A stretch of DNA of 64,000 nucleotides. Origin: Vogesella indigofera. GTDB lineage: Bacteria; Pseudomonadota; Gammaproteobacteria; Burkholderiales; Chromobacteriaceae. Position 1 is the first letter of the stretch; each line of letters opens with the position of its first letter. The notes beneath the pieces are model-generated. The model worked only from the letters and a program-made list of their open reading frames with translations. It was not told where the DNA came from and did not search any database. The DNA lies in NCBI RefSeq assembly GCF_003633895.1, contig NZ_RBID01000018.1:1-64000 (forward strand). Reading direction: 5' to 3'. Of this stretch, positions 233 through 64,000 are shown in pieces. The position numbers and the translations under genes are program-made.

Positions 233-265
233 AAAGGTTGGCCGCAATGTTTGCGGCCAACCTTT
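233..265 (-). terminator. rnr terminator built from an inverted pair of the TTGGCCGCAA repeat
   Basis: Perfect 15-bp arms (233-247 and 251-265) with a 3-base loop are followed on the minus strand by a T-rich run, 20 bases beyond the rnr stop. Each arm is a full copy of the dispersed AAGGTTGGCCGCAA word, so one structure is both terminator and repeat pair, as uptake sequences are in Neisseria. Confidence 0.85.
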
Positions 266-285
266 GCGAGTCAAAACATGGTGAA

Positions 286-3291: not shown

Positions 3292-3524
3292 GCGTTTGCA
3301 CAGCAAAAACTGCAGCAATCCGTATCGCCCTCCCCTCCCGCGCCGGCCAGCCGGTCACGCCCCCACCGCCGTCGTTGGCGCCACGCATCACCCGACAAGC
3401 CTTACCCTATCCCCAGCTGGCACGCGGGTAGCCAACCATCACGCAACACTGCAACGTAGCTGCCGCACCCGAGCCCGGCACTGCGGCCAACCTTTGCCAA
3501 TCGTCACACCGTTTGCCGCAGACG
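3292..3524. other. Gene-free interval between tRNA terminator and purA terminator
   Basis: About 230 bases with no convincing gene. The only recognisable element is one copy of the dispersed repeat, CTGCGGCCAACC at 3481-3492. Short open frames here lack ribosome sites and conserved content. Confidence 0.6.
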
Positions 3525-4893: not shown

Positions 4894-6045
4894 TTACTTA
4901 AACGGTACAAGCTGCCAGTTTTCACCAGCCTTGACCAGTTCACGATCACAATTCAGGGCGGCAGCAGACTCGCCCAGATAATCCACAATGACCTTCTCGC
5001 CGCGCGCACGCAGTTCGGCCACTTTTATTGTCGCTTGCGGCAACAGGTTGGCCGCAAGCTTGATTCCCTTGGCACTTTCGTTCTGCGGCAGGATACGGAT
5101 CAGGTCGCGCAGGTCGAGACTGAAACCGGTCGCCGGACGGGCACGACCGAAGCGGCGGCCAACGTTGTCGTAACGGCCGCCACGCGCCAGCTCTTCCGCC
5201 CAGCCAGGGGCGTAGGCGGCAAACATCAGACCGTTGTGGTAGTGGGTGCCGCGCAATTCGGTGAGGTCAAAGTTGAGCTCGACCTCGCCTTCCAGCGAGT
5301 TCGCCACCGCGGCCAACTGCATCAGGCCGAGTTCGACTTCCGGCAGCGACGGCAAGCGGGTACGCGCCTTGTCCAGCACCGCGCGCGATCCATACAGCTC
5401 CGGCAGCGCGAGGAAGGCGCTGCGATACGGCTCGGCAACATCGACCAGCAACTCGCGCAGCGTCGACAGATCCTTGGCCTGCAGTACCGAGAACACCTCG
5501 GCAGACAGTTCATGACCAAGACCGGCGGCCTGCACCAGACCGCGGAACAGGCCCATATGGCCGACATCCAGGCGCAGACCTTCAACGCCAATCTGGCGCA
5601 GCGAGGTCAGCATCAGCCGGATGATTTCCAGGTCGGCCTCGATGCCGGCATAGCCGTACAGTTCCGCCCCCACCTGCAGCGGCTCGCGCGAGCTCATCAG
5701 GCCGTCCGGGCGCGAATGCACCACGCTGCCTGCGTAGCACAGCCGGGTCACACCGGTGCGCTGCGACAGCAGATGGGCATCGATACGCGCCACCTGTGGC
5801 GTGATGTCGGCACGCAGCCCCAGCTGGCGACCGGAGAAATGGTCATCCAGCTTGAAGGTCTTGATCGCCAGCGCGCCGTCTTCCGGGGTCACCAGTGCAT
5901 CGTAGTATTCAATCAGCGGCGGCAGGACCAGTTCGTAGCCGGAGGTACGAAACAGCTCAAGCATCGATGCCTTGGCAGACTCAACCTGACGGGCGGTGGC
6001 CGGCAGAATGTCCGCAACATATTCGGGTAACAGCCAATTACGCAT
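4894..6045 (-). CDS. hisZ: ATP phosphoribosyltransferase regulatory subunit
   Basis: HisZ is a catalytically dead histidyl-tRNA-synthetase-like protein that pairs with the short form of HisG to make the first, histidine-regulated enzyme of histidine synthesis. The 383-residue protein opens like a class II synthetase core (YVADILP, then the PPLIEYYD segment) and lacks the C-terminal anticodon-binding domain of true HisRS. HisG is not in the window; HisZ predicts a short HisG elsewhere. A perfect copy of the dispersed repeat lies within the gene at 5046-5057. A terminator-like hairpin precedes the gene, so it may be partly uncoupled from hflC. Confidence 0.93.
   Translation of the reverse strand: MRNWLLPEYVADILPATARQVESAKASMLELFRTSGYELVLPPLIEYYDALVTPEDGALAIKTFKLDDHFSGRQLGLRADITPQVARIDAHLLSQRTGVTRLCYAGSVVHSRPDGLMSSREPLQVGAELYGYAGIEADLEIIRLMLTSLRQIGVEGLRLDVGHMGLFRGLVQAAGLGHELSAEVFSVLQAKDLSTLRELLVDVAEPYRSAFLALPELYGSRAVLDKARTRLPSLPEVELGLMQLAAVANSLEGEVELNFDLTELRGTHYHNGLMFAAYAPGWAEELARGGRYDNVGRRFGRARPATGFSLDLRDLIRILPQNESAKGIKLAANLLPQATIKVAELRARGEKVIVDYLGESAAALNCDRELVKAGENWQLVPFK
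5046..5057 (+). repeat. Dispersed repeat GGTTGGCCGCAA
   Basis: Perfect 12-base copy inside hisZ. Confidence 0.7.
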
Positions 6046-7020: not shown

Positions 7021-8235
7021 TTAGTTACGCCCGCGAGTCACATCGCGGCTGGTGGAACCGGACGAAGACGGCGCGACGGGGGCCACCACCGGCGGCACCT
7101 CGGCAGGCTGTGTAGCGCTGCCGGACTGGAGCGACGGCGCGGCGACACTGGACTGCTGGATCAGCTTGTCCAGCGGCAGGTACAGCAGGTTGTTGCCACC
7201 CTTCTGGTCAACCAGCACCTTGGTGGTATTGCTCATCACCTGTTGCATCATGTCGAAGTACAGGCGGTCACGCATCACCTTCGGCGCCTTGGCGTATTCC
7301 GACAGCACGCTGTTGAAACGCGCGGCGTCACCCTCGGCGGTGGCCACCACATTCTGGCGATAGCCCTCGGCCTCTTCCAGCAGGCGCGCGGCCATACCCT
7401 TGGCCTTCGGCACCACGTCGTTGGCGTAAGCGACACCGTCGTTACGCAGCTTTTCCTTGTCCTGGCCCGCCTTCACCGCGTCATCGAACGCCGCCAGCAC
7501 CGGCTCCGGCGGTTGCACGCCGTTGATGTTGACCTTGGCCACGCGCACGCCCAACTTGTAGCGATCCAGAATCGACTGAATGATGCGCTGGGTATCGGCC
7601 GCAATCTGGGCACGACCCTCGTTGAGCACAAAATCGACCTTGTTGCGGCCAACCACTTCGCGAATCGCCGTTTCCGTCGCCTGCTTCACCACGTCGCGGG
7701 CATCCGCCTCGGTAGCTAGGTTGTTGAACAGGAAGTCGCGCGCGTCCTTGACGTCGTACTGCACCGACAGCTGCACATCGATGATGTTCTGGTCTTCGGT
7801 GAGCATCAGCGATTCTTCATTGATGCGGTTCTTGGCACTGCCACGGTAGCCGACCTCGATGCTGCGCACCTCGGTCAGATTGACGATCTCCACCGTTTCA
7901 AACGGATACGGTGCGCGCCATTGCAGACCGGAGTCGGTCGTGCGGTTGAAGCTGCCCATGCGCAGCACCACCCCCTGTTCGCGGGCATCGACGATGTAGA
8001 AACCGCTCAGCAGCCACAGGCCGGCCAGTGCCGCCAGCACGCCGGCTGCGCCAAAGCGCATGCCGCGTGGCGACTCGCCGCTGCCGTTGCCATTACCAAC
8101 CGGCGGCTCTTCATCCGGACCACGATTACCCAGCAGGCGCGACAGGCGCTGGTTCAGCTTGCGGAAAATTTCGTCCAGATCCGGCGGGCCATCGTTCGGA
8201 CGTTTACCACCCCAGTTAGGATCATTCTGTGCCAT
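7021..8235 (-). CDS. hflK: FtsH protease regulator HflK
   Basis: Partner of HflC in the FtsH-HflKC complex. The 404-residue protein has a cytoplasmic glycine/proline-rich N-terminus (MAQNDPNWGGKRPNDGPPDL), a membrane segment at about 62-82, and an SPFH domain with the typical ADARDVVKQATETAIREVVG stretch; the C-terminus is rich in Ala, Pro and Ser. The start overlaps the end of hflX by 14 bases, implying translational coupling. A perfect copy of the dispersed repeat lies at 7643-7654. Confidence 0.95.
   Translation of the reverse strand: MAQNDPNWGGKRPNDGPPDLDEIFRKLNQRLSRLLGNRGPDEEPPVGNGNGSGESPRGMRFGAAGVLAALAGLWLLSGFYIVDAREQGVVLRMGSFNRTTDSGLQWRAPYPFETVEIVNLTEVRSIEVGYRGSAKNRINEESLMLTEDQNIIDVQLSVQYDVKDARDFLFNNLATEADARDVVKQATETAIREVVGRNKVDFVLNEGRAQIAADTQRIIQSILDRYKLGVRVAKVNINGVQPPEPVLAAFDDAVKAGQDKEKLRNDGVAYANDVVPKAKGMAARLLEEAEGYRQNVVATAEGDAARFNSVLSEYAKAPKVMRDRLYFDMMQQVMSNTTKVLVDQKGGNNLLYLPLDKLIQQSSVAAPSLQSGSATQPAEVPPVVAPVAPSSSGSTSRDVTRGRN
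7643..7654 (-). repeat. Dispersed repeat, minus orientation
   Basis: Perfect 12-base copy (TTGCGGCCAACC on plus) inside hflK. Confidence 0.7.
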
Positions 8236-11152: not shown

Positions 11153-12292
11153 TTAGAGTGTGACCGCCGACAAGGTGCCGTTGGTGTCGAGAACGTAGGC
11201 AATATTGCCGAGCACGAGCGGGCGTGCAATGGTTCCTTCCACCTTCAGCTGGCTGCGGCCAACGATTTGTCCATCAACAGGCGAGAGCAAATGTGCATAG
11301 CCCTCGCCATCTACTGCCAGTAAGTTATTACCCAGCTTTACCGGGGCGGTCACGTTGCGATAACGCAGTGCGTCCTGTTTCCACAGGTTGCGGCCGGTAT
11401 CCGGGTCGAACGCCCAGATCGAGCCGTCATCGGCAGTGGAATACACGCCCTTGGCATCCATCGACAGGCCGCGGCTGCTGGCCAGCTCGCGCGCCCACGC
11501 CTGCTCGCCGCCACGGGCCTCGAAGCAGCCGATCCGCCCCTGATAGGCCACGGCGCAAACGCGGCGGCCATCAAAAACCGGCTGACTGACCACGTCAGTC
11601 ACCCGTTCCAGTTCACTGGCGCCACGCGGCGAAGCGACTACCGCCTCCCACAGCATGCGCCCCTGTTCCAGTGCATACACCGCCAGCTTGCCGGAGGCAG
11701 AGCCGACCAGCAGCACGTCGTCACCTTCCACCTTCAGCTGCGGCGTGGTCTGTTTGACGGTCAGCGCCGGCAATGGTTGCCATTCGGTCCACAACTGGCG
11801 ACCGCTCTGGATGTCGAAGGCGCTGATGCGACCGTCGTTGCTGCGCGTCACCACCGCCTTGCCGCCGACCTGCGGCGGCTCGGCCAGCACGCTGGTCAGC
11901 GTCTGTTCCCACACGATCTTGCCGGTCTCAAGGTTGGCCGCAATCAGCTTGCCCTGGTCGTTGCCGGCAAAAATCAGCTTGTCGGCGATGGCGACACCGG
12001 CGCTGAGCTTCTGTTCGAAGTCGAACCAGCGACTCTGGCTGCCGTTCAGCACGTTGATGGCGCTGACCTTGCCATCACCACCGGCCACCCACAGCAGACC
12101 CTGGTCGTAGAACGGCGTGAACAGGCCGCCCTCCGCCGCCGGCACGCTGGCCTGCCACTGCACTTTCAGCGCGCTTTGCTGCGCAAGCGGCTGCAACGGG
12201 GTCGGCTCGAAACCGACCGAACCTTCAAACCAGCTGGCGCAGCCGCTCAGCAGCGGCAAAACAAGGGCGGCACAAATGAGACGTCGCTTCAT
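11153..12292 (-). CDS. bamB: Outer membrane assembly lipoprotein BamB
   Basis: Lipoprotein of the BAM complex that helps insert beta-barrel proteins into the outer membrane. I choose the ATG at 12292 (379 residues), two bases after the yfgM stop; a TTG two codons earlier is possible. The signal peptide ends in the lipobox LSGC with the lipidated cysteine at 18. The rest is a PQQ-type beta-propeller with repeated blade motifs such as VWVAGGDGKVSAIN-like and FAGNDQGKLIA. It sits between yfgM and der, the usual order. Confidence 0.94.
   Translation of the reverse strand: MKRRLICAALVLPLLSGCASWFEGSVGFEPTPLQPLAQQSALKVQWQASVPAAEGGLFTPFYDQGLLWVAGGDGKVSAINVLNGSQSRWFDFEQKLSAGVAIADKLIFAGNDQGKLIAANLETGKIVWEQTLTSVLAEPPQVGGKAVVTRSNDGRISAFDIQSGRQLWTEWQPLPALTVKQTTPQLKVEGDDVLLVGSASGKLAVYALEQGRMLWEAVVASPRGASELERVTDVVSQPVFDGRRVCAVAYQGRIGCFEARGGEQAWARELASSRGLSMDAKGVYSTADDGSIWAFDPDTGRNLWKQDALRYRNVTAPVKLGNNLLAVDGEGYAHLLSPVDGQIVGRSQLKVEGTIARPLVLGNIAYVLDTNGTLSAVTL
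11932..11943 (+). repeat. Dispersed repeat GGTTGGCCGCAA
   Basis: Perfect copy inside bamB, extended to AAGGTTGGCCGCAA. Confidence 0.7.
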
Positions 12293-14251: not shown

Positions 14252-14263
14252 GTTGGCCGCAAG
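14252..14263 (+). repeat. Dispersed repeat GGTTGGCCGCAA
   Basis: Perfect copy in the ispG-hisS gap, just after the ispG stop. Confidence 0.7.
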
Positions 14264-14265: not shown

Positions 14266-15540
14266 CTACACGGACTTGATCGGGATGGTGCGCGCCACCA
14301 CTTCGCGGCGCTTGGCACCACCCTCGCCATAACGGGTCTGCACGTACTGATCGACGATGGCCTTGAACTCGGTGGCGATGTGATCGCCCTTCAGCGTCAC
14401 GTCCTTGTGACCGTCGACGTATACCGGCGCCACCGGCACTTCGCCGGTGCCAGGCAGGCTGATGCCGATGTCGGCGAGCTTGGACTCGCCCGGGCCGTTG
14501 ACCACACAGCCCATCACCGCCACCTTCATGTCTTCCACCCCCGGATACTGCAGGCGCCAGATCGGCATCTGCTCGCGCAGGTAGGTCTGGATACTGTCCG
14601 CCAGTTCCTGGAAAAAGGTGCTGGTGGTGCGGCCACAGCCGGGACAGGCGGTGACCAGCGGCGTGAACGAGCGCAGGCCCATGGTCTGCAGCAGCTCCTG
14701 CGCCACCACCACTTCCTTGGTGCGCGCCTCGCCCGGCTGCGGGGTCAGCGAAATGCGGATGGTATCGCCGATGCCTTCCTGCAGCAGCACCGCCAGCGCC
14801 GCGCTGGAGGCGACGATGCCCTTGCTGCCCATGCCGGCCTCGGTCAGGCCCAGGTGCAGCGGAAAATCGCAGCGACTGCCCAGATCGCGATACACGGTGA
14901 TCAGGTCCTGCACGTTGCTGACCTTGCACGACAGCAGGATGCGGTCGGAAGCCAGCCCCAGCTCCATCGCCTTGTCGGCCGATTCCAGCGCCGACACGAT
15001 CAGCGCCTCGCGCATCACCACATCCAGCGCCTTGGGGTTGGCCGCATGATTATTGGCGTCCAGCATCCGCGCCAGCAGCGCCTGGTCCAGGCTGCCCCAG
15101 TTGACGCCGATGCGCACCGGCTTGTCGTACTCGATGGCAGTGCGAATCATGAACGCGAACTTGTCGTCGCCCTTGGCACCCTTGCCGACGTTGCCGGGGT
15201 TGATGCGGTACTTGCCAAGCGCACGCGCGCAGTCAGGGTAGTCTTTCAGCAGACGGTCGCCGTTAAAATGGAAGTCGCCGACCAGCGGCACGTCGCAACC
15301 GAGGTCGTCCAGCCGCTGGCGGATTTCCGCCACGCGGGCGGCGGCCTCCGGGCTGTTGACGGTAATGCGCACCACCTCGGAGCCGGCCTGCGCCAGCGCC
15401 TGCACCTGCTGCACGGTGGCAGCGGCATCGGCGGTGTCGGTATTGGTCATCGACTGCACCATCACCGGGTGCGCGGAACCCACCATCACGTGGCCAATGG
15501 CCACCTGCTGGGTTTGACGGCGTTTGATCGTTGCGTCCAT
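14266..15540 (-). CDS. ispG: 4-hydroxy-3-methylbut-2-enyl diphosphate synthase
   Basis: Iron-sulfur enzyme of the MEP isoprenoid pathway, converting MEcPP to HMBPP with electrons from flavodoxin or ferredoxin. The 424-residue protein has an N-terminal TIM barrel and a C-terminal domain whose cysteines (CPGCGRT and [11 protein letters not shown]) hold the 4Fe-4S cluster. The length matches the bacterial two-domain form with the Betaproteobacterial insertion. It starts 7 bases after the rodZ stop. Confidence 0.96.
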
Positions 15541-15547: not shown

Positions 15548-16387
15548 TTAGTTCAGTTCCAGTTTGGCGGTGGTCCCGCGAATCTTGCTGCCAAGGTCGA
15601 TTGGCTGACCGTTATAGGCCAGCTCGGCGTTGGCCGCATTGCCGATCACCACGCGGAATGGCGGCCGGCCCTGCAGCTGGCGGCTGTCGTTGGCGGCCAG
15701 CGTGGCGTATACCAGTTTCTTGCCGTCGGCATCGGTAATCGACACCCAGGCTTCCTGGCGCACGCGCAATTCGATACGGCCCTGCCCGGCAACCGGCGCG
15801 GCGGCACTTGGGGCCGAGGCGGCCACGGCGAGCGGCACCGTCACCGCCGGAGCGGCCGGCTGCGGCGCCGAGGCCGGCACCAGCGGCGGAGTGACCGCCA
15901 CCACGTCGGAGGTGGTCGGTTGCAAGGCGCTGGCGTCGGGATCGGCCACCGTCGGTACCAGTGCCAGCGGCACCGAAGACTGCACTTCCGGCTCCGCCGC
16001 GCCCGGCAGCAGGAACCAGCCGCCGGCGATAACCAGCAGCGCGCCCAGCGACAGAGGCAAGGCCAGCGAGGCCTTGGCCGGCGCTTCGTTGACCGGCACC
16101 AGCGCTGCCGGCGGCGTGTCCAGCGGCACACACTGGTCCAGACGCGCCACCAGCGCATCGGCATTCATTTCCATGTAACGGGCATAGCTGCGCACGAAGC
16201 CGCGGGCGAAGGTCGCGCCTGGCAGGCTGGCGAAATCACCACGCTCGATGGCATTCAACTGCTTGACCGACAATTTCAGTCGATCGGCGACCTCGCCGAT
16301 GCTCAGGCCCTTGCCCTCGCGGGCAGCACGCAATTCCTGCCCGATTGCCACGGCAGTGCTGTCTTGTTGTTGGTTATCCGCTTCCAT
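15548..16387 (-). CDS. rodZ: Cytoskeletal protein RodZ
   Basis: Bitopic membrane protein linking MreB filaments to the cell wall elongation machine. The 279-residue protein has an N-terminal helix-turn-helix domain (about 15-80), a membrane segment at about 107-127, a periplasmic Pro/Ala-rich linker, and a C-terminal DUF4115 domain (about 205-279, with [18 protein letters not shown]). It lies between pilF and ispG, its common place in Betaproteobacteria. Confidence 0.92.
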
Positions 16388-16393: not shown

Positions 16394-17130
16394 TCAGTTT
16401 CCGCTAAGCAACATCTGGGCTTCCCCGGTATCGGGAAAACGCGTTTTCAGATAATCGGCCAGGCGTGTCTCCATCGCCCGATCCTGTTTTAAACGTGCCA
16501 GACGAATCCCCATCATCAATTCCGCTGGCGACATACGACGCTCGTCAAACTTCAGGCGTTCGTAATAAAAGGTCGCCAGCGTGACATTTTTATCCAACAA
16601 AGACAAGTTCAGCAGTTCGCGCAACGCGGCGCTGTCATTCGGCGCGCGGCGCAGCGCGGCCAGCAGCCACTGGTTGGCCAGCGGGCGCTGGTCCATGCGC
16701 ACCAGGCAGGCCGCCTTGTTCACCATCGCCGATTGCGGCGACTGGTACAGCGGATCGGCCAGCGCGCGATCGAAACGCGCGATCGCCTCTTCGTAACGAC
16801 CGCGGCTGCACAGGTACCAGCCGAAATTATTGTTGACCTCGGGGTTGGCCGCATCCAGCTTCAGCGCGCGGTTGAAGGCGGCTTCCGCCTCGGTGTCGAC
16901 ACCCAGCTGCATGTAGATCAGGGCGCGGGCGAGGTAGCCGGCCTGAAAGGTAGGATCAAACTTGATGGACTGATCGGCGTTTTCCAGCGCCACGCGCATG
17001 TTGCCGATCTTCATGTACTCGATTGCCAACAGGGCCCGTGTCTGTGCCAGCTCGCGCGGGGTGGCGCCGTCGGCGAATGTCAGCGTACTGGCCAGCAGGG
17101 TGGCCAACAGGACGACGACACGGGCTAGCT

Positions 17131-17134
<4 letters not shown>
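16394..17134 (-). CDS. pilF: Type IV pilus biogenesis TPR protein PilF/PilW
   Basis: Tetratricopeptide pilotin or stability protein for the PilQ secretin of type IV pili. The start at 17134 gives 246 residues and overlaps the rlmN stop as ATGA. A cleavable signal (about 1-21, ending TFADG) is followed by several TPR units, including [21 protein letters not shown] and [17 protein letters not shown]. Unlike the lipoproteins PilF of Pseudomonas and PilW of Neisseria, no lipobox cysteine is visible, so it would be soluble in the periplasm unless the start differs. Its presence shows type IV pili, hence a possible DNA-uptake apparatus. Confidence 0.88.
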
Positions 17135-18225
<1,091 letters not shown>

Positions 18226-19690: not shown

Positions 19691-19727
19691 AAAAAGGTTG
19701 GCCGCAACACTGCGGCCAACCTTTTTT
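19691..19727. terminator. Bidirectional terminator made of two facing repeat copies
   Basis: AAAAAGGTTGGCCGCA and its reverse complement face each other over a 4-base loop, with A5 on the left and T6 on the right, so it can end both the plus-strand SPOR gene and the minus-strand zapE. Both arms are copies of the dispersed repeat. Confidence 0.9.
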
Positions 19728-20924: not shown

Positions 20925-20947
20925 GTTGGCCGCAGCGTGCGGCCAAC
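20925..20947. repeat. Inverted pair of the dispersed repeat between cysM and zapE
   Basis: GTTGGCCGCA and TGCGGCCAAC form 10-bp arms over a GCG loop in the cysM-zapE gap. There is no good T run, so it may stabilise or attenuate rather than terminate. Confidence 0.7.
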
Positions 20948-34138: not shown

Positions 34139-34141
34139 ACG

Positions 34142-36586: not shown

Positions 36587-36598
36587 GGTTGGCCGCAA
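36587..36598 (+). repeat. Dispersed repeat GGTTGGCCGCAA
   Basis: Perfect copy in the 81-base convergent gap between the DUF4936 gene and copA. Confidence 0.7.
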
Positions 36599-40372: not shown

Positions 40373-40389
40373 AAATCCTTTAAATGTTA

Positions 40390-41800: not shown

Positions 41801-41812
41801 GGTTGGCCGCAA
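41801..41812 (+). repeat. Dispersed repeat GGTTGGCCGCAA
   Basis: Perfect copy in the 250-base gap upstream of the binding-protein gene; I see nothing else of note there apart from the potI terminator. Confidence 0.7.
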
Positions 41813-44082: not shown

Positions 44083-44104
44083 CTGCGGCCAAGGTTGGCC
44101 GCAA
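44083..44104. repeat. Head-to-head pair of the dispersed repeat
   Basis: CTGCGGCCAA and GGTTGGCCGCAA abut, giving a near-perfect palindrome in the gap between the binding-protein gene and the large permease gene. The right copy is a perfect 12-mer. It may form a stem that lowers permease expression relative to the binding protein. Confidence 0.7.
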
Positions 44105-45243: not shown

Positions 45244-46359
45244 TTAGTGGCTGACGATGGCGGAATCAAGGGCGCGGATATCGCGCGCCATCCAGCCGAC
45301 ATCGAGCATGTCGCCAGTTTTCCAGCTGCTGTCCAGCTCGCCGACCGGCACCTTGACCATGAAACCGCTCTGGCCGGCGACATCGAGACGCAGGCGCACG
45401 TGGTCGCCGAAGTAGATGAACTCCGCCAGCTTGGCCTTGAGGCGGTTCTCGCAGGCTTCGGCCAACTGATTCAGGCGCACGCGCTCCGGACGGATCGACA
45501 TCGAGGTCGGTTCGCCGTTGCGGCCAACGCAGATCGCCGAGGCCTTGACCACTTCACCGCTGGCCAGACGCACCGCGCAGTGCTGACCGGCAACATCGAC
45601 CACTTCGCCGTGCAGGGTGTTGTTCTCGCCGATGAAGTTGGCAACGAAGGAGTTGACCGGTGCCTCGTACAGCACGTTGGCGGCATCGATCTGCTGGATC
45701 ACGCCGTCCTTGAACACCGCCACGCGGTCGGACATGGTCAGCGCCTCGCCCTGGTCGTGGGTCACGTACACCACGGTGATGCCGAGGTTTTCGTGGATGT
45801 GCTTGATTTCCAGCTGCATGTGTTCGCGCAGCTGCTTGTCCAGCGCGCCCAGCGGTTCGTCCATCAGCACCAGCTGCGGTTCGAACACCAGCGCCCGCGC
45901 CAGTGCCACGCGCTGCTGCTGGCCGCCGGACATCTGGCCCGGATAGCGGTGCGCCAGCGCGTCGAGCTTGACCATGCCCAGCGCCTTTTTCACGCGTTCG
46001 GCGATCTCGCTCTTGTTCATCTTGCGGATGGTCAGCGGGTAGGCGAGGTTTTCCGCCACCGTCATGTGCGGGAACAGCGCGTAGTTCTGGAACACCATGC
46101 CGATATTGCGCTTGTGCGGCGGCACGTTGTTGAGCAGCTGGCCGTCAAGACGGATCTCGCCGTGGGTCGGCGTTTCAAAGCCGGCCAGCATCATCAGACA
46201 GGTGGTCTTGCCGGAGCCGGAGGGGCCGAGCATGGTAAGGAATTCCCCGCGACGGATGTCGAGGTCGAGATGCTTGACGATCAGTGACTCACCATCGTAG
46301 CTCTTCTGCACGCCACGGAAGCTGACCAGCGTGTCACTGGCCGGTGTTGAGATGCCCAT
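45244..46359 (-). CDS. Polyamine-type ABC transporter ATP-binding protein (PotG/PotA-like)
   Basis: A 371-residue ATPase driving the importer. The ATG at 46359 has GGAG 8 bases upstream. Walker A GPSGSGKTT, signature [15 protein letters not shown], Walker B LVLMDEPLGALD and the switch histidine VYVTHDQGEA are intact. A C-terminal TOBE regulatory domain (about 280-371) follows, as in PotA/PotG. First gene of the operon ATPase-receptor-permease-permease. Confidence 0.92.
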   Translation of the reverse strand: MGISTPASDTLVSFRGVQKSYDGESLIVKHLDLDIRRGEFLTMLGPSGSGKTTCLMMLAGFETPTHGEIRLDGQLLNNVPPHKRNIGMVFQNYALFPHMTVAENLAYPLTIRKMNKSEIAERVKKALGMVKLDALAHRYPGQMSGGQQQRVALARALVFEPQLVLMDEPLGALDKQLREHMQLEIKHIHENLGITVVYVTHDQGEALTMSDRVAVFKDGVIQQIDAANVLYEAPVNSFVANFIGENNTLHGEVVDVAGQHCAVRLASGEVVKASAICVGRNGEPTSMSIRPERVRLNQLAEACENRLKAKLAEFIYFGDHVRLRLDVAGQSGFMVKVPVGELDSSWKTGDMLDVGWMARDIRALDSAIVSH

Positions 46360-46772: not shown

Positions 46773-49700
46773 TTAATCGAGCAGGTGGTTGTTCAGCTCG
46801 CGCATCCCGGCAGACAACATCGCCAGGTCCAGCACGTCGAACGACTGCAGTTCGACGAACATCTGCTGGCAGGCCTCGACGTCGGCGGCACGCTGTGCCA
46901 GCCAGGCATTGACGAAGGCGGTCTCGCTGGCCTCGTGCAGAGCCTGACGCGTCAGCTCGCGGTGCTGGCGATACAGGTCGTCGCGCAGCGCGGAGCGCGC
47001 CAGCGATTGCCAACGGTTGTCACGCGGCAGCTGGGTGATGGCGGCACGCAGCCAGTCCAGCTGCAGATCGCGGCCCAGTTGCAGGTAGTTGGCCGCAATC
47101 GCGTCCAGCGCCAGCTCGCTGCCTTCGCCGATCTCGATGATATCCATCAGCGGTACCGCAAACTCCAGGCGCGCCAGCACACTGGCCAGCTCGGCCGGTA
47201 CGTTCGGCTGGTTGAAGCGGCTCTCCAGACGGGCAACCTGCGGATAAACCTCGGCACTGATCAGCTGCGGCAGTTGCTGCAGCAGCGCCTGCACCTTGGC
47301 ACCGTACTGGGCGATGACCGCATTGACCGAGCCGGACGGACGGCGGTTGCGCAGTACCCAGCGCACCACGCGTTCCACCAGGGTACGCACCATCACCATC
47401 ATGTCGACCTGCAGGTCGGCCGATACCTTGTTGTCCAGCGCCTCGATCTGCGTCCACAGGCTCTCGGCGTCAAACACGCGGCTGGCGATCCAGAACGCGC
47501 GGGTGATGTCGGCAGCGGAGAACGCCGACTCTTCCTGCAGGCGGAACACGAAGGTCACGCCCATGCGGTTGATGATCTGGTTGGCCAGCTGGTTGGCGAT
47601 GATCTCGCGCTTCAGGTGGTGACGCTGCATCTGCTCGCCGAAGCGCTGTTGCAGCGGCTGCGGGAAGTAGTTGACCAGCACCGGCAGGAAGTCGGCATCG
47701 TCCGGCACGTCGGTGGCCAGGATCGCCTGATCCAGCGAGATCTTGCCGTAGGCCAGCAGTACCGCCACTTCCGGCGGCGTCAGGCCCTGGCGCGCCAGGC
47801 GACGCTCGTTGATCTGGGTTTCCGACGGCAGGTACTCGATCTCGCGATTGAGTTCGCCGGTCTTCTCCATGTGGTTGATCATGCGCGAGTGCGCGCTGAG
47901 CATCGACGCGGCATGGCTGCGGTTGATCGCCAGTACCTGGGTCTGCAGGTAGTTGTTGCGCAGTACCAGATGACCGACTTCTTCGGTCATCTCGGCCAGC
48001 AGGTCATTACGCTGTTTCAGCGTCATGTCGCCGGCCTGCATCACCGCACCCATCAGGATCTTGATGTTGACTTCGTGGTCGGAGCAGTCGACACCGGCGG
48101 AGTTGTCGATGGCGTCGGTGCAGATGCGGCCACCGGACAGCGCGAACTCGACACGACCCAGCTGGGTGCAGGTCAGGTTGCCGCCTTCGGCCACCACGCG
48201 CACTTGCAGGTCGCGACCGTCGACACGTACCGGATCGCAGGCGCGGTCACGGGCATCGGCGTGGCTCTGCGTCGAGGCCTTGACGTAGGTACCGATACCG
48301 CCGTTGTACAGCAGGTCGGCCTTGGCCTTCAGCAGCTCGTGGATCAGCTCGTTCGGCGCCATGCTGTCCTTGTCGGTTTCCAGCCAGGCCTTCACTTCCG
48401 GCGACAGCGGGATCGACTTGGCGGAGCGTTCGAAGATGCCACCGCCCTGCGAGATCAGCTCGCGGTTGTAGTCGCTCCAGCTGGAACGCGGCAGGTTGAA
48501 CAGGCGCGCACGCTCGGCGAAGCTCGCCGCCGCATTCGGCGTCGGATCCAGGAAGATGTGCAGGTGGTTGAACGCCGCCTTCAGGCAGATGTGCTCGGAC
48601 AGCAGCATGCCGTTGCCGAACACGTCACCGGCCATGTCGCCGATGCCGATCACGCTGAAATCCTGCTCCTGGGTGTTGATGCCCAGATGGCGGAAGTGGC
48701 GTTTCACCGATTCCCATGCGCCGCGGGCGGTAATGCCCATGCCCTTGTGGTCGTAGCCGGCGGAGCCGCCGGAGGCGAACGCATCGCCGAGCCAGAAGTT
48801 GTAGGCTTCGGAGATGCCGTTGGCGATGTCGGAGAAGGTCGCGGTGCCCTTGTCGGCGGCCACCACCAGGTACGGATCATCCGGGTCCAGACGGCGCACG
48901 TCTTGCGGCGGAATGATCTGGCCGGTCACCAGGTTGTCGGTAACGTCCAGCAGTGCCGAGATGAAGGTCTTGTAGCAGGCGATGCCTTCGGCCATGAACG
49001 CTTCGCGGTCGGATGGCGCCGGCAGTTGCTTGCCGACGAAACCACCCTTGGAGCCCATCGGCACGATCACCGAGTTCTTCACCATCTGCGCCTTGACCAG
49101 ACCCAGCACCTCGGTGCGGAAGTCTTCCATGCGGTCGGACCAGCGCAGGCCGCCACGGGCGACTTTCGAACCGCGCAGGTGCACGCCTTCGACACGCGGG
49201 CTGTACACCCAGATCTCGAACATCGGGCGCGGCTGCGGCAGGAACGGAATGGCGTTGGATTCCAGCTTGAAGGAGATGTAGGACTTGAACGCGCCCTGGG
49301 CATCCTTCTGCCAGAAGTTGGTACGACGCGTGGCCAGGATCACCTGCAGGAAGCCGTTCAGGATGCGGTCTTCGTCGAGGTTGGCGACGTCGTTGAGCAG
49401 GTCTTTCAGCTCGGCCTGCAGGTTGGCCGCAGCGGCGTCGTCAAACGCGCTCGGGTGCAGGCGTGCGGCGAACAGCTTCACCAGACGGCGGGTGATCTGC
49501 GGGTAGTGCGCGACGCAGTTTTCGATGTAGGCCTGGCTGAAGGTGAGGCCGCCCTGGCGCAGGTATTTCGCCAGTGCACGCACCAGCGTGATCTCGTGCC
49601 AGTCGAGGCCGGCCACCAGTGCCAGACGGTTGAAGCCGTCGTTTTCCACGTCGCGGGCAAACACGCGGGCCAGCAGCGTCTGGAAGTTCTTCTGGACAGC

Positions 49701-53707: not shown

Positions 53708-53788
53708 GCGCCAGCAGGCAATACCGTGCAAGGTGCGGCCAGCCCAGGGTTGGCCGCAGCGTCCAGACGCAAAAACCGGAGTAATACC

Positions 53789-55215: not shown

Positions 55216-56343
55216 ATGCACAGAATCGATCATCCGCTGCCGCCCATCAGCCTGAACACTGCGCGCCAGATCAGCAGTTTTCACTTTGGCCGCGCCGGAG
55301 AGGGCGAGAAGGTCTACATCCAGGCCAGCCTGCACGCTGACGAACTGCCAGGCATGCTCACCGCCTGGCAGCTGAAGCAAAGGTTGGCCGCACTGGAGGC
55401 CGAGGGCCGTATCCAGGGCGAAGTGGTGCTGGTGCCGGTCGCCAACCCGATCGGCCTCGACCAGAACCTGAACAGCGTGATGCTGGGCCGCTTCGAGCTG
55501 GCCAGCGGCCAGAACTTCAACCGCCACTACCCGGCCTTTGCCGCCGACATCTTTCACGAGCTGAAAGCGGAACTGGGTCAGGACGCGAAGGCCAACACCC
55601 GCCTGATCCGCGAGCGGCTGCGCAGCAAGGTCGCCGCCATCGAGCCGGCGAGCGAGCTGGCCGCGCAGCGCAAGACGCTGATGCTGCTGGCCTGTGACGC
55701 CGACGTGGTGCTGGACCTGCACTGCGACTGCGCCGCGGCGATGCACCTGTATACCGGCACGCCGCTGTGGCCGCAGTGCGAACCGCTGGCACGCTATATC
55801 GGTGCCGCCGCCACGCTGCTGGCCGAGGAATCCGGCGACAACCCGTTTGACGAAGCCTGCAGCCGGCTGTGGTGGCAAGTGCGCGACATGGCGGCTGCGG
55901 CCAACCTTGACGCCGCCATCGACATGGCCTGCCTCGCCGTCACCATCGAGCTGCGCGGCCAGGCCGATGTCAGCCATGCGCTGGCGGCACAGGATGCCGA
56001 CGCCATCATCGCCTTCCTGCAGCACCGCGGCGTGATTGCCGGCACCGCCCCGGCCCTGCCGGAACTGCGCTACCCGGCGACGCCGCTGGCCGGTTCCGAC
56101 AGCCTGCTGGCGCCGCATCCCGGCGTGGTGCACTACCACTTGCAGTCCGGCACCATCGTGGCCGCCGGCGATGCCATCGCCGACATCATCGACCCGGTCA
56201 ACGACCGCGTCACCACCTTGCGCGCCAGCCGTCCCGGCATGCTCTACGCCACCGAAAGCCGCCACTACGCCATTACCGGCCAGTGGCTGGCCAAAGTGGC
56301 CACCCCTGAATCCTTTAAAACCGGAAAGTTGCTATCAGCATGA
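55216..56343 (+). CDS. aotO: AotO-like succinylglutamate desuccinylase/aspartoacylase family protein
   Basis: A 375-residue M14-like zinc hydrolase. The metal-binding HxxE is at H40-E43 in [11 protein letters not shown], a second histidine lies in [15 protein letters not shown], and N-x-N-R in QNFNRHYP. In P. aeruginosa the same position in the aot operon is held by aotO, a gene of this family not needed for uptake and of unknown role. Its start is 9 bases after aotM, and its stop overlaps the ATPase start (ATGA). Cytoplasmic; it might deacylate an imported arginine derivative. Confidence 0.85.
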
Positions 56344-57258: not shown

Positions 57259-58233
57259 ATGGTCAACGTAACTTCCGGCACCAAACCCGTCCGCTACGGC
57301 TTCTTGCTGCTGCCCAACGCGTCGATGGCCGATTTTGCCATCGCCACCGAGGTGCTGACCCGCGCCAACCAGCTGGCGGAAAAAAAGTGCTACGAGTTCC
57401 TGCCGCTGTCGCTGGACGGCCTGCCGGTCACGCTCAGCAACGGCCTGCGCCTGGCGGTGGACCTGCCGCTGGCCCACGCGCCGAAACTGGACGTGCTGGT
57501 GGTGCTGGCCGATGAAGTCGGCGTCGACATCGCCGCCGACGAGCTGGCGCGCGTGATCGGTAGCCAGCTCAACGAACACACCATGCTTGCCGGCATCAAC
57601 TGCGGCAGCTACTGGCTGGCACGCGCCGGGCTGCTGGCCGGCCACCGCGCCACCATCCACTGGCAGGAAATCAGCCGCCTGTCGGACGAATTCCCCGACG
57701 TGATCGTGTCGTCCAACCTGTACGAGATCGACGGCAACCGCCTGACCAGTACCGGCGGCGCCGCCACCTTCGACTTCATGATGGCGCTGGTTGCGGCCAA
57801 CCTTGGCCAGGAATTCGCCGCACAGCTGTCGGAAGTGTTCAGCATGGAACGGCTGCGCCCCGGCAGCGAACGGCAGCGCATCCCGCTGGCCACCCGCATC
57901 GGCGGCAGCCAGCCGAAGCTGACCGAGGCGGTCAGCCTGATGGAAGCCAATATCGAGGAACCGCTGACCACCGACGACATCGCCTACTACGTCGGCGTAT
58001 CGCGGCGCCAGCTGGAGCGCCTGTTCAAGCAGTACCTCGGCACCGTGCCGTCGAAATACTATCTGGAGCTGCGCCTGAACCGCGCGCGCCAGCTTTTGCA
58101 GCAGACCAGCAAGTCCATCGTGCAGATCGGCCTCGCCTGCGGCTTCTCCAGCGGCCCGCACTTCTCCAGCACCTACCGCAGCCACTTCAACATCACGCCA
58201 CGCGAAGAGCGCGCGCAGCGCACCCAGGGCTGA
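57259..58233 (+). CDS. argR: ArgR-type transcriptional regulator (AraC family with GATase1-like domain)
   Basis: A 324-residue regulator from the ATG at 57259 (an ATG at 57208 is possible). An N-terminal DJ-1/GATase1-like sensing domain (about 10-180, YGFLLLPNASMADFAIATEV, MLAGINCGSYWLARAG) precedes a C-terminal AraC/XylS pair of helix-turn-helices (about 215-310, DIAYYVGVSRRQLERLFKQY and QIGLACGFSSGPHFSSTYRS). Placement at the end of the aot operon matches Pseudomonas ArgR, which responds to arginine and controls aot and the large NAD-GDH. It is unrelated to E. coli ArgR. Confidence 0.9.
   Translation: MVNVTSGTKPVRYGFLLLPNASMADFAIATEVLTRANQLAEKKCYEFLPLSLDGLPVTLSNGLRLAVDLPLAHAPKLDVLVVLADEVGVDIAADELARVIGSQLNEHTMLAGINCGSYWLARAGLLAGHRATIHWQEISRLSDEFPDVIVSSNLYEIDGNRLTSTGGAATFDFMMALVAANLGQEFAAQLSEVFSMERLRPGSERQRIPLATRIGGSQPKLTEAVSLMEANIEEPLTTDDIAYYVGVSRRQLERLFKQYLGTVPSKYYLELRLNRARQLLQQTSKSIVQIGLACGFSSGPHFSSTYRSHFNITPREERAQRTQG
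57791..57802 (-). repeat. Dispersed repeat, minus orientation
   Basis: Perfect copy (TTGCGGCCAACC on plus) inside argR. Confidence 0.7.
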
Positions 58234-58848: not shown

Positions 58849-59385
58849 ATGAAGATGAACCAACGTTACCACCCGAGCCAGATCATGCTGCACGCGGTGA
58901 TCGGCCTGCTGATCGTGCTGACCTTTGCCTTCGGCAAGTACGTGGCCAGCCTGCCGCTGTCGCCGGCCAAGTTCCAGCTGATCAGCTACCACAAGTGGGG
59001 CGGCATGCTGGTGCTGCTGCTGGTCGTGCTGCGCATCGTGCTGCGCCTGCTCAAGGGCGCGCCGCCGCTGCCGGCCACCATGTCGCCGCTGGCCAGACTG
59101 GCCGCCCACGCCGGCCACCTGGCGCTGTACGTACTGATGCTGGCGGTGCCGATGTCCGGCTGGCTGATGAGCTCGGCCTACGGCATCCCGGTGGTGCTGT
59201 TCGGCGTGCTGCCGCTGCCGGACCTGATTGCGGCCAACCCTGCGCTGGGCGAACAGCTGGGCGAGGTGCACGAGCTACTCAACCAGCTGCTGCTGATCAC
59301 CGTGATCCTCCACGTGCTGGCGGCACTGAAACACCACTTTATTGACCGCGACGGTCTGCTGCAGCGCATGAGCCTGCGTCGTTAA
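58849..59385 (+). CDS. Cytochrome b561
   Basis: A 178-residue inner-membrane dihaem b-type cytochrome with four predicted membrane segments. Haem-ligand histidines lie in SQIMLHAVIGLL, YHKWGGMLVLL, AAHAGHLALYVLM and VILHVLAALKHHF. Such proteins pass electrons between quinol and superoxide or periplasmic partners. Starts at the base after the marR stop; yceI genes follow, a pairing seen in many Proteobacteria. A perfect repeat copy lies at 59228-59239. Confidence 0.9.
   Translation: MKMNQRYHPSQIMLHAVIGLLIVLTFAFGKYVASLPLSPAKFQLISYHKWGGMLVLLLVVLRIVLRLLKGAPPLPATMSPLARLAAHAGHLALYVLMLAVPMSGWLMSSAYGIPVVLFGVLPLPDLIAANPALGEQLGEVHELLNQLLLITVILHVLAALKHHFIDRDGLLQRMSLRR
59228..59239 (-). repeat. Dispersed repeat, minus orientation
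   Basis: Perfect copy (TTGCGGCCAACC on plus) inside the cytochrome b561 gene. Confidence 0.7.
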
Positions 59386-60607: not shown

Positions 60608-62428
60608 CTAGTGGCGCTCGTCCAAAGCCGGCAACAGCGGCAGGCGCACGGTAAAGCGCGTGCCCTCGTCCTCGCTGCTGTCCACCGCGATGCTGCCGCC
60701 GTGACGCTGTACCAGCTCCCGCACCAGCGCCAGCCCCATGCCGCTACCGGGAATGCCCAGCGCGGTACTGGCGCGGAAAAAGCGGGTGAACAGCTTGTCC
60801 TGCTCATCCGCCGGGATGCCCACCCCCCAGTCCTGCACCGTGACGTGCACCTCGCGTCCGGCGACCGTGCAGCGCAGCGCCAGCCGCTGCCAGCGCGGCG
60901 AATACTTGATGGCGTTGGAGATCAGGTTGCCGAACACCACGCGCAGCAGCTCGGCGTCGCCATCGACGATCAGCACGTCATCGGCGGCAAACGACACCTC
61001 GATCTGGCAATCGGGATGGATGTCCTGGCTCTGCTCCACCAGCTCGGCCAGCAGTGGCACCAGCCGCACCGGCCCCTGCTGCACCACCAGCTGCCCTTCC
61101 TCCAGCCGCGTCAGCGTCAGCACGCTGTCGGCGAGGCTGACCATGTGCTTGACCATGTCGCGCAGGCGCTGGGCGCGGCTTTGCAGCTGCTCGCCGTGGA
61201 ACTGCTCCGGCTGGCGCTGCAGGCGCTGCGCGATGCCGTCGATCACCGCCAGCGGGGTGCGGTACTCGTGCGACACCATGCTGACGAAGCGGCGCTGCAT
61301 CTCGGCCAGCTCGCGCTCGTGCTGCAGCGTGGCTTCCAGCGCGTGCTCGCGCTGCAGAATGTGGCTGATGTCGAGGATGCTGGCCAGCACGCAGGGGATG
61401 CCGCGGTAGTCGATCAGGCAGCCGGTGAGGCTGGCGTCGAACGGACGCTGCTCGCGGTCGCGCAGCACCGCGTGAAAGTCGATCACCTGCCCTTCCTGCT
61501 GCAGGATTTCCAGGAAACGCTTGCGCTCCGCCGCGTGCTCGTACAGCGCGGCCGAGGTCGGCGTGAACTCGCTGCTGCTGCCCAGCCACATGCCGTAGCG
61601 CTCGATCGCCAGCCGGTTGGCGTAGCGGATGCGCTCCGACGCCAGCTCGGAAATCACCATCGGCAGCGGCAGCGCATCGAGAATGCCCTGCAGCTCCTCG
61701 CTGCGTTCGCGCTGCAGCTGCAGCAGCTTTTCGCGGTCGCTGACATCGTGCTGGCTGATCAGCATCGCGCTCTCGCCGGTGGCCGGATCGCGGATGCGGA
61801 ACAGCTGCACCTGATGGCGCACCATGCTGCCATCGGCCAGCCGCACGTCCACCACCCGGCGCACGCCGCGGCTCTCCATCGCCGCCAGCCGCAGCTCGGC
61901 CAGCAGCTTGGGGTCCGGCAGCGAGGCCAGCAGCGCATCGCCCTCCGACGGCGGCAGCGCCAGCGCGGCGGCCGGGTTGCGCTGCAGCACCATGCCGTTG
62001 TCGTCGTACAGCGACACCATCTCGCGCACGTGGCGCAGCATCTCCACGCTGCGCACGGTATCGGCGTCGACCGACACCGGCACCGCCTCCACCTTCATCA
62101 GGTCGGGCCAGTCGTTATCGAAGCGGGCGCAGTGGCAGCGCACCTGCAACGGCAGGCCGTGCGGGTACAGCGTCCAGTTTTCCTCCACCGCGCGCTGCTC
62201 GGCAAAGGCGGCCTGGTACACGGCAAGGCGGGTGCGCAGCGCCTCGCTGCTGATGGAAAAGTCGCGCTCCTGCAGCGATGCCAGATCCGCCGCGTCCCAC
62301 AGCTGCAGCGCCTGGCGGTTGGCCCACACGATGCTCTGCCGGCGCATGTCGAAAAACCAGACCGCCAGATGCAGGCGTTCCAGCAGCGGCATGGCCGCGG
62401 TCAGTGATGGCGGCAATTCGGTACTCAT
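60608..62428 (-). CDS. PAS-domain sensor histidine kinase
   Basis: A 606-residue kinase without membrane segments: three PAS-like regions (about 15-125, 128-235 and 240-360), a DHp domain with the phospho-accepting H387 in SMVSHEYRTPLAVIDG, and a catalytic ATPase domain with the N box NLISNAIKYS, DWGVGIP and GSGMGLALV. All catalytic motifs are intact, so it is predicted active and cytosolic. Its start overlaps the stop of the REC-EAL gene (ATGA), so the two probably form a signalling pair in which this kinase phosphorylates the receiver domain. Confidence 0.92.
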   Translation of the reverse strand: MSTELPPSLTAAMPLLERLHLAVWFFDMRRQSIVWANRQALQLWDAADLASLQERDFSISSEALRTRLAVYQAAFAEQRAVEENWTLYPHGLPLQVRCHCARFDNDWPDLMKVEAVPVSVDADTVRSVEMLRHVREMVSLYDDNGMVLQRNPAAALALPPSEGDALLASLPDPKLLAELRLAAMESRGVRRVVDVRLADGSMVRHQVQLFRIRDPATGESAMLISQHDVSDREKLLQLQRERSEELQGILDALPLPMVISELASERIRYANRLAIERYGMWLGSSSEFTPTSAALYEHAAERKRFLEILQQEGQVIDFHAVLRDREQRPFDASLTGCLIDYRGIPCVLASILDISHILQREHALEATLQHERELAEMQRRFVSMVSHEYRTPLAVIDGIAQRLQRQPEQFHGEQLQSRAQRLRDMVKHMVSLADSVLTLTRLEEGQLVVQQGPVRLVPLLAELVEQSQDIHPDCQIEVSFAADDVLIVDGDAELLRVVFGNLISNAIKYSPRWQRLALRCTVAGREVHVTVQDWGVGIPADEQDKLFTRFFRASTALGIPGSGMGLALVRELVQRHGGSIAVDSSEDEGTRFTVRLPLLPALDERH

Positions 62429-64000
62429 GGCGTCCCCAGTAACGACAGCAGTTCGGCCAGCGGCATCGGCCGGTAAAAGTGATAGCCCTGCGCAAAGCGG
62501 CAGCCCAGCTCCGCCAGCAGCGCCGCCTGCGCCGCGCTCTCCACCCCTTCGGCCACCACCACGCAGCCCATGGCGCGGCCGAGGCTGATCAGCCCTTCGA
62601 TGATGCGCGCGTCGATGCTGCGGCGGCTGATGTCCATCACGAAGCTGCGGTCGATCTTGATCACTTCGGCGTGCAGCCGCTTCAGGTAGTCCAGCGACGC
62701 GTAGCCCATGCCGAAGTCGTCGACCGCCAGCTTCAGCCCCAGCGCGCGCAGCGCGGCAATGTCGGCCTCGATGGCGGCGGTGAGGTAGGTCATCGAGGTC
62801 TCGGTGACCTCGATTTCAAGGTTGGCCGCCAGTGCCAGCCGCCCCGCCTGCAGCTGGGCGTTGAGAAAGGCCGGCACCCCGCGACCGAGACTTTGCGCCG
62901 AGATGTTGAACGACAGGATAAAGCCCGGACGCAGACTGACCAGCTCGGTGATCGCCTCCAGCGTTTGCGCAATCACCCAGTGGTCGAGGTCGGTGGCCAG
63001 CCCGCTGCGCTCCGCCGCCGGCACGAAGGCCCCCGGCGACAGTGCACCGATATCGGCATGCGGCCAACGTACCAGCGCCTCGGCGCCGACGATGCGGCCG
63101 CTGAGCAGGTCGACGCGCGGCTGGAACAGCAGGGTCAGCTCGCCGGATTTCAGCGCCTGCCCCAGATAGCGCTCGGCGTGGCGCGCCGCCTGCAGCGCCT
63201 GGTAGTCGCCGCGGCCCAGCTCGATGAAGCGGCGCGGATTGCCGGCGCTCTCGAAATTGAGATGCAGCGCGCAGGATTCCACCAGCGTGGCGGCCTCGAA
63301 GTGGCGCAGCGCCGGCGCCTGCCAGTCCAGATGGATGCATAGCGCGCTGCAGGTATAGGCGACGCTGACACCGCCGACCTCGAGCATCATCCTTTGCGCC
63401 AGCACCGCCGCCGCCTGCGCCGCGGCATCCTCCGCCAGCAGCAGCGCCCAGCAGCCATCGGACCAGGTAAACACCTGCCCGCTGCCGGCCAGCGGCGCGA
63501 GACAGGCCAGCATATTGTGTTGCAGCAGCGGCTGTTCGGCGGGCGCCAGGCGCATGGTCAGCGCCAGATAGGTATCGACCTTGACCAGCAGCAGCGTCTG
63601 CGACGCCTGCGCCGTGCGTGCCGCGGCCACCTGCGCCAGCAGCAGCGCCCGTCCCGGCACCGCCGGTGGAGGCGGCAGGCTGTCGCCACGGCGGCGGCGC
63701 TTGACCTTGGCGGCGATGGCGGCCAGCAGCAGGTCGAAGTCGACCGGCTTGACCAGATAGTCGTCGACCTCCAGCAGGCGACCGCGCACCTGGCTGTGGC
63801 TGTCTGCCAGCGCGGTGAGCAGGATGAACGGCAGCTGCGCCAGCTCGCCACCCTGCGCCGCCATCGTTTCCACCAGCTCGAAGCCGTCCATGCCCGGCAT
63901 CGACACGTCGCTCAGCACCAGATCCGGCAGCTGCTGCGCCATCAGCGCCAGCGCGGCGTGGCCGTCCACCGCCTCCAGCACGCGGTAGCCGGCGCTGAGC
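62425..64000 (-). CDS. Response regulator with EAL c-di-GMP phosphodiesterase domain (partial, cut by right edge)
   Basis: The 5' end lies beyond base 64000; about 525 residues are visible. The receiver domain lacks only its first strand: the phosphorylated aspartate is in LVLSDVSMPGMDGFEL and the conserved lysine in DYLVKPVDF. A middle region of about 130 residues with no recognised motif, perhaps a degenerate GGDEF, precedes an EAL domain with AEALVRW, SFNISAQSL, EVTETSMT, DDFGMGYASLDYLK, KIDRSFV and AEGVES. All known catalytic residues appear kept, so active hydrolysis of c-di-GMP is expected. Confidence 0.9.
   Translation of the reverse strand, partial: LSAGYRVLEAVDGHAALALMAQQLPDLVLSDVSMPGMDGFELVETMAAQGGELAQLPFILLTALADSHSQVRGRLLEVDDYLVKPVDFDLLLAAIAAKVKRRRRGDSLPPPPAVPGRALLLAQVAAARTAQASQTLLLVKVDTYLALTMRLAPAEQPLLQHNMLACLAPLAGSGQVFTWSDGCWALLLAEDAAAQAAAVLAQRMMLEVGGVSVAYTCSALCIHLDWQAPALRHFEAATLVESCALHLNFESAGNPRRFIELGRGDYQALQAARHAERYLGQALKSGELTLLFQPRVDLLSGRIVGAEALVRWPHADIGALSPGAFVPAAERSGLATDLDHWVIAQTLEAITELVSLRPGFILSFNISAQSLGRGVPAFLNAQLQAGRLALAANLEIEVTETSMTYLTAAIEADIAALRALGLKLAVDDFGMGYASLDYLKRLHAEVIKIDRSFVMDISRRSIDARIIEGLISLGRAMGCVVVAEGVESAAQAALLAELGCRFAQGYHFYRPMPLAELLSLLGTP

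Follow-up and report, generated by a model that had tools for sequence, protein, structure and literature searches.

Uptake words in Neisseriaceae and Pasteurellaceae, and a probable one in Vogesella

Words by which bacteria mark their own DNA genome-wide for uptake are best described, in the parts of the literature covered, for two families: Neisseriaceae, with the DNA uptake sequence (DUS), and Pasteurellaceae, with the uptake signal sequence (USS). The DNA considered here, called the window, is a stretch of 64,000 nucleotides from Vogesella indigofera (contig NZ_RBID01000018.1, positions 1 to 64,000), a member of Chromobacteriaceae, in which a dispersed word with the core TTGGCCGC is greatly overrepresented. 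As judged from sequence comparisons, it is very probably (roughly 0.85) an uptake word of the DUS/USS type. Its sharpest form, the 10-mer GTTGGCCGCA, would be the Vogesella dialect of a Chromobacteriaceae word that consists of GTTGGCCG followed by CA, AA or AG.

According to the available passages of PMC3630211, a CTG core at positions +6 to +8 is common to all eight published DUS dialects. The same paper (Frye et al. 2013) reports that the genomes of Laribacter, Lutiella, Pseudogulbenkiania and two Chromobacterium, five in all, have no obvious DUS and that BLAST finds no ComP in C. violaceum, and dates the DUS system after that split; its main text does not mention Vogesella, Gulbenkiania or Paludibacterium. 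Chromobacteriaceae were separated from Neisseriaceae in 2013 (reference list of PMC10715097). The ComP of Neisseria has four cysteines whose two disulfides form the DD region used in DNA binding (passages of PMC4906244), while the receptor candidate for the Pasteurellaceae USS, PpdA/ComN, resembles FimT (passages of PMC12616744).

The Vogesella word is like the DUS in having about 2000 copies per genome of 10-12 bp on both strands (the DUS range is given as around 1000-6000 copies in the source passages), dialects that follow lineage (CA, AA and AG here), inverted pairs at gene ends, and a ComP-type minor pilin. The AA word with its flank, AGGTTGGCCGAA, is identical in register at 9 of 12 positions to AG-simDUS and to AG-mucDUS (229 of 20000 shuffles do as well). 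Two changes distinguish king3DUS, and one of them, A to C at base 9, is shared by Vogesella. However, the place of the CTG at +6 to +8 is taken by CCG in all three dialects, which bears out the absence of a CTG core noticed in the preliminary description of this DNA; base 5 is G. The 10-mer alone has no significant similarity to the DUS (3606 of 20000 shuffles), nor has the extended Vogesella word (2394 of 20000), and the pilin is without the four-cysteine DD region. Since two Neisseriaceae features, the CTG core and the DD region, are missing, the word is set apart from the known DUS dialects, as a variant with its own dialects and ComP-type pilin. Common descent of the word with the DUS is no more than suggestive; the relationship of the pilin to ComP is better supported. 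The USS is likewise a genome-wide self-marking word, but it belongs to distant bacteria with another receptor candidate, and the Vogesella word has no resemblance to the USS cores AAGTGCGGT and ACAAGCGGT (3-5 of 9 matches at best).

Copy number and unit of the word

In the window the core TTGGCCGC has 61 copies, 33 on the plus and 28 on the minus strand, where dinucleotide shuffles give 6.61 +/- 2.56; this agrees well with a hand count of about 60 (32 plus, 28 minus; about 4 expected) in the preliminary description. The 17 perfect copies of the 12-mer GGTTGGCCGCAA reported there, against about 0.01 expected, were all recovered (17 against 0.02), at the starts then listed save one, which lies at 14251 instead of 14252. 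Nor is the word confined to the window: the 3.62-Mb V. indigofera genome (20 contigs) has 641 copies of the 12-mer, 323 forward and 318 reverse, while its letters read backwards, taken as a control, occur 0 times in the whole genome.

The sharpest unit is the 10-mer GTTGGCCGCA, with 41 copies in the window. In a 464-kb sample of the V. indigofera genome (the window plus 20 stretches) it has 242 copies, far above the 5.7 expected from a fourth-order Markov model, and under the same model its single-base neighbours are mostly at or below expectation; those clearly above it carry C at base 1, A at base 8, or either C or G at base 10. The commonest flanking bases are A at -2 and G at -1 in 7 of 7 genome samples. 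With its commonest flank the 10-mer reads cAAgGTTGGCCGCA, given as AAGGTTGGCCGCA where the uptake reading is formulated.

Three further words, AGGGCAAG (17 vs 2.1), ACGGCAAG (23 vs 4.6) and AGGACAAG (12 vs 1.7), are likewise enriched in the window under a third-order model. They also rank among the top words of Chromobacterium loci, and are possibly codon pairs.

Distribution and dialects

The 12-mer is present in 220-654 copies in 13 of 13 Vogesella genomes, and in 0-9 copies in 48 genomes of nine other Chromobacteriaceae genera. Counts of the 10-mer are 1871-2442, with balanced strands, in 8 of 8 Vogesella-like genomes (three of these being isolates or metagenome-assembled genomes, MAGs) and 8-58 in 18 others. 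What the Vogesella-like genomes share is the 10-mer, the 12-mer undercounting the word in part of Vogesella.

Sister words were first seen in loci of other genera and then counted genome-wide. The AA dialect, GTTGGCCGAA, reaches 2168 copies in isolate JH1-16, 1851 in Paludibacterium denitrificans, 1368 in an Aquitalea MAG, 1245 in Gulbenkiania mobilis, 579 in Crenobacter oryzisoli and 183 in a Pseudogulbenkiania MAG; it is low elsewhere (78 in Crenobacter luteus, 8-42 in nine other genomes searched). The AG dialect, GTTGGCCGAG, has 1590 copies in Crenobacter luteus and 13-165 in 14 others. Summed over the endings CA, CG, AA and AG, GTTGGCCG occurs 868-3107 times in 22 of 61 Chromobacteriaceae genomes, 294 times in one and 53-245 times in 38. 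Within an order-wide set of 399 genomes the same sum is at most 223 in all 386 outside Chromobacteriaceae, of which a few are 3- to 5-fold above the backwards control (e.g. 139 vs 31). The word is thus present in related genera, where the preliminary description had proposed to look for it, as dialects following lineage.

On a midpoint-rooted tree of Der, BamB and HflX, some nodes of which are weak, the AA form sits on several deep branches, CA corresponds to Vogesella and AG to Crenobacter luteus. Two word-free groups are nested inside the tree, one of Chromobacterium and Aquitalea proper, the other of Craterilacuibacter with Crenobacter intestini and Crenobacter caeni. The genus Crenobacter is apparently split, the latter two species grouping with Craterilacuibacter and C. 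luteus and C. oryzisoli standing elsewhere; Vogesella itself forms two well separated subclades. An alternative word in the word-free relatives was sought in 61-121 kb of Chromobacterium alticapitis, Chromobacterium subtsugae, Aquitalea pelogenes, Craterilacuibacter and Crenobacter intestini, and nothing comparable was found. The clearest candidate, CAGATTGG in Chromobacterium alticapitis (26 vs 3.3 expected in 121 kb; L124-L128, L015), is frequently followed by CC and has 18 copies in 142 kb of Aquitalea, and is too weak to call as an uptake word. The Chromobacterium alticapitis and Aquitalea genomes with CAGATTGG retain a ComP-type pilin.

Placement of the copies

Gene gaps make up 10.9% of the V. 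indigofera sample and hold 84 of the 242 copies, a density of 1.66/kb against 0.38/kb in genes (about 4-fold); these shares, and those given below, are approximate because the gene calls rest on a simple rule of third-position GC. The other 158 copies lie inside genes, 77 sense and 81 antisense, with all six frames represented. A second Vogesella (G059), a complete genome sampled every 205 kb with 20-kb stretches, 20 in all, has 98 of 282 copies in gaps, which make up 12.0% of the sampled sequence.

In these two samples every close pair of copies (<=45 bp) has its members on opposite strands (29 of 29 pairs in V. indigofera, 26 of 26 in G059). The gene map, which is rough, places 46 of these 55 pairs in gaps between convergent or tandem genes and none between divergent genes; 7 fall inside genes and 2 at the ends of stretches. 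Of the 48 with a measured distance, 37 begin <=60 nt from a stop codon. The facing pairs at gene ends first noticed in the window are real, and terminator-like inverted pairs at gene ends, a feature of the DUS, are found in both Vogesella samples. For the other dialects, placement was sampled in four AA genomes and one AG genome. Copies are clearly enriched in gaps in JH1-16 (21 of 56) and fairly so, on small numbers, in C. luteus (9 of 37) and the Aquitalea MAG (7 of 35), and 13 of 14 close pairs in the five samples are opposite-strand.

Two of the 20 G059 stretches (L082 and L086) are without any copy, the other 18 holding all 282. One of the two (GC 0.55) carries a bacteriophage exclusion (BREX) locus with BrxL, PglZ and an Eco57I-type methylase. 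In the second (GC 0.51), a TniQ gene occurs together with one for a transposase-like protein, perhaps a Tn7-like element. A low-GC 40-kb stretch of V. indigofera (C1:40001-80000) has 5 copies of the 10-mer and no 12-mer; two genes scanned there are neither of them clearly mobile. Its first half, C1:40001-60000 (L061), encodes a 2161-aa open reading frame (ORF) and an outer membrane efflux protein, and is perhaps a type I secretion region.

Of 13 10-mers aligned at orthologous sites of V. indigofera and Vogesella fluminis, 11 are intact, compared with 104 of 191 control 10-mers containing GGCC; the two changed copies differ by one and by two substitutions, and 4 further sites did not align. Between Beta proteobacterium L13 and Vogesella aquatica, 13 of 13 are intact (controls 122 of 213), and the two comparisons pooled give p = 1.3e-4 against the controls. 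No indel changes were seen at word sites in six close-species comparisons (78 aligned sites, many counted repeatedly). For the distant pair V. indigofera and Vogesella urethralis, 4 of 13 copies are intact and 4 fall in alignment indels. Going by these alignments, turnover of the word is through point changes, and the word is kept above background. Such change by substitution, with conservation above the controls, fits biased uptake or selection, and is unlike the behaviour of an inserting element.

The ComP-type pilin and a possible route of uptake

The preliminary description had suggested a search for the minor pilin ComP, and a ComP-type pilin was found in 11 of 11 word-bearing genomes tested. 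It has the prepilin N-terminal motif and a globular part that is closest to Neisseria ComP in sequence and in predicted fold (a second look with VIA-align was used for the fold comparison). In V. indigofera the match lies outside the window, on contig 11 (G000:C11:94256-94504, locus L054), the comP-type gene being at L054:1402-1830 (minus). The pilin tree joins the ComP-type pilins with ComP through weak nodes. A second V. indigofera pilin above the PF16732 cut-off (L053) was rejected as ComP, being PilE-like and without a match to ComP structures. The position of the comP-type gene next to aroB, seen at L054 and at four Vogesella loci (L099-L102) but at none of the other loci compared, was discarded as a family-wide marker. 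In Paludibacterium a second pilin gene (L110:944-1480) stands just upstream of the comP-type gene, possibly by tandem duplication.

The ComP-type pilin is probably what reads the word. A minor pilin of this type, in the type IV pilus, would bind the word on outside DNA, retraction of the pilus would draw the bound DNA inward, ComEC would move one strand through the inner membrane, and homologous recombination would install it. As word-bearing DNA would be taken up more often, word-bearing alleles would displace word-free ones, so that the word would accumulate by point mutation at permissive places of the shared genome and be rare in newly arrived DNA. Two opposite copies in a gene gap would double as a terminator-like hairpin.

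The odds are about even that ComP-guided uptake predates the split of Neisseriaceae and Chromobacteriaceae. An ancestral ComP without the DD region would have recognised a word that was flanked by AG and had C-C/T-G as its core. Neisseriaceae would then have gained the DD region and fixed CTG; in Chromobacteriaceae GTTGGCCG would have persisted, with change mostly in the word's last two bases. The word would have been lost twice, once in Chromobacterium and Aquitalea proper and once in Craterilacuibacter and the two Crenobacter species, the latter group with loss of the ComP-type gene.

The literature searched (titles, abstracts and passages, with few subscription journals or bioRxiv preprints) contains no description of an uptake tag in Chromobacteriaceae. 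The family would be a third with an uptake word, close to Neisseria and with several dialects as well as word-free sister lineages, which makes the origin, change and loss of such a word and its receptor testable. The finding is at odds with the claims, in the passages of PMC3630211 already cited, that the DUS arose after the Chromobacterium split and that CTG is found in all DUS dialects. It also predicts natural transformation, and a route to improve it, in genera for which the literature searched describes none.

Several observations weigh against the uptake reading. As to placement, 7 of the 55 close pairs are classed as inside genes; copies are weakly enriched in gaps in Gulbenkiania (6 of 46) and not at all in the sampled Paludibacterium (14 of 45, the caller having left 31% of the sequence as gaps); pairs are scarce in these two (2 and 1) and number 0 in the Aquitalea MAG; and one of the 14 close pairs in the AA and AG samples is on the same strand. 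In G059 copies lean weakly towards the leading strand (160/122, p = 0.027), a small excess and the sole hint of a replication role. As to the pilin, ComP-type proteins are the best match in 4 of 9 word-free genomes as well (two Chromobacterium, two Aquitalea), and the one such protein checked also matches ComP structures. The V. indigofera pilin has only 2 cysteines (129 and 138), with 2 or 3 in 15 relatives. Its soluble part is not basic, with a net charge of +1 (-5 to +6 in word-bearing relatives), compared with +6 and +7 in two Neisseria fragments, both incomplete. A whole-protein search places PilE/PilA pilins (best 2.6e-11) above ComP (7.9e-10), because of the shared N-terminal helix. The Pfam family ComP_DUS (PF16732) is unspecific, with matches in 234 of 300 genomes of the order, and the PilE-like pilin of V. 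indigofera scores higher in it than the ComP-type pilin (70.5 vs 46.0 bits); a family named after the DUS receptor that matches pilins order-wide misleads annotation. ComEC was not found in 2 of 13 Vogesella genomes, one of them 88% complete and the other in about 330 contigs. Finally, the literature searched, including the available part of PMC12826045 and few subscription journals or bioRxiv preprints, gave no data on uptake or competence in Vogesella; for V. indigofera, an environmental species, deletion of the pigment gene igiD has been published (PMC12826045).

Alternative explanations

The alternative that survives best keeps the uptake sequence but has it read by another pilin, FimT/GspH-like, with the ComP-type protein as a bystander. 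The gene directly upstream of the comP-type gene in V. indigofera (L054:1824-2258, minus) encodes a basic pilin (net +7 in the soluble part) with a GspH match below the Pfam cut-off, and V. fluminis has a similar neighbour. A FimT-like receptor candidate in Pasteurellaceae, and a ComP-type protein lacking both the DD region and a net positive charge, point the same way. Nevertheless, a simple motif scan found the basic neighbour at only 2 of 16 comP-type loci, with none at the deeper Vogesella loci, while the ComP-type pilin accompanies the word in every word-bearing genome tested, and a different reader is unlikely.

A word that organises the chromosome or guides recombination, similar to FtsK-orienting polar sequences (KOPS), Chi or matS, would also be frequent and genome-wide, and the excess in G059 would suit it. 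In the V. indigofera sample the orientation of copies is unrelated to local GC skew (120 leading, 122 lagging), and KOPS and Chi were rejected on this count; the opposite-strand pairs after stop codons and the two acquired islands without the word likewise speak against such a role, and the word is changed or lost between close genera, unlike the target of conserved housekeeping machinery. The preliminary description had offered chromosome marking beside DNA uptake. That half is not borne out, strong skew with replication direction being absent and the G059 excess weak, and such a role has very little probability. The uptake half gains support from the counts, strand balance, lineage distribution, dialects, hairpin pairs, islands, conservation and the ComP-type pilin.

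Equally improbable is a mobile or transcribed repeat, either a terminator family or repetitive extragenic palindromes and bacterial interspersed mosaic elements (REP/BIME) spread by a REP-associated tyrosine transposase (RAYT). Inverted pairs between genes are common to REP/BIME and the Vogesella word, many gap copies of which form terminator-like hairpins, and 5 of 13 Vogesella genomes, G059 among them, have weak Y1-transposase matches (one or two each). In contrast, no PF01797 Y1-transposase match was found in V. indigofera, on which REP/RAYT was rejected, nor in 7 of the 12 other Vogesella genomes; most copies are intragenic, with each of the six frames represented, and site changes between close species are substitutions without indels.

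The GGCC inside the word and its commonest frames (LAA, AAN, VGR) might point to a side effect of codon use or base composition, or to the target of a restriction-modification system. This has a negligible chance and is refuted as a full explanation by the enrichment over Markov models, relatives of similar GC being without the word, gap density being about 4-fold the coding density and the GTTGGCCG core with its shifting last bases tracking lineage.

Word copies and genes of the window

Five pairs lie within 38 nt of a stop codon in the window. Facing pairs of GTTGGCCGCA are at 237..261 (plus 237, minus 252), 24 nt past the stop of an RNase R-like gene (286-3042, minus); at 19697..19720 (plus 19697, minus 19711), 29 nt past that of zapE (19750-20907, minus); and at 20925..20947 (plus 20925, minus 20938), 6 nt past that of an ORF at 20954-21850 (minus), the last pair being classed by the pair-sorting script as within an overlapping ORF. 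Back-to-back pairs are at 39071..39101 (minus 39071, plus 39092), 38 nt past the stop of a GGDEF gene (39140-40426, minus), and at 44084..44103, 26 nt past that of an ORF at 44130-45176 (minus), where CTTGGCCGCA, one base off, at 44084 (minus) precedes GTTGGCCGCA at 44094 (plus).

Single copies of GTTGGCCGCA that belong to 12-mers are at 5047..5056, 11933..11942, 14252..14261, 28793..28802, 36588..36597 and 41802..41811 on the plus strand, and at 7644..7653, 29997..30006, 34831..34840, 57792..57801 and 59229..59238 on the minus strand. The remaining plus-strand copies are at 15037..15046, 15629..15638, 16844..16853, 25968..25977, 28197..28206, 33641..33650, 34141..34150, 36054..36063, 47088..47097, 49422..49431, 53749..53758 and 55383..55392, and those of the minus strand at 3482..3491, 11254..11263, 21427..21436, 23062..23071, 27070..27079, 32466..32475, 45519..45528, 55896..55905 and 63059..63068.

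The copy at 16844..16853 is antisense within pilW (16394..17368, minus), which is above the TIGR02521 cut-off for the type IV pilus biogenesis/stability protein PilW. PilW also goes by the name PilF, and the pilus gene reported earlier for the window is upheld. The copy at 7644..7653 lies within an hflK-like gene and is found at the same site in V. urethralis and V. aquatica, and one base off in V. fluminis. The bamB copy (11254..11263) is unchanged in V. fluminis, V. urethralis and V. aquatica; the window BamB is 98-99% identical to those of V. fluminis, Vogesella margarita and Vogesella alkaliphila.

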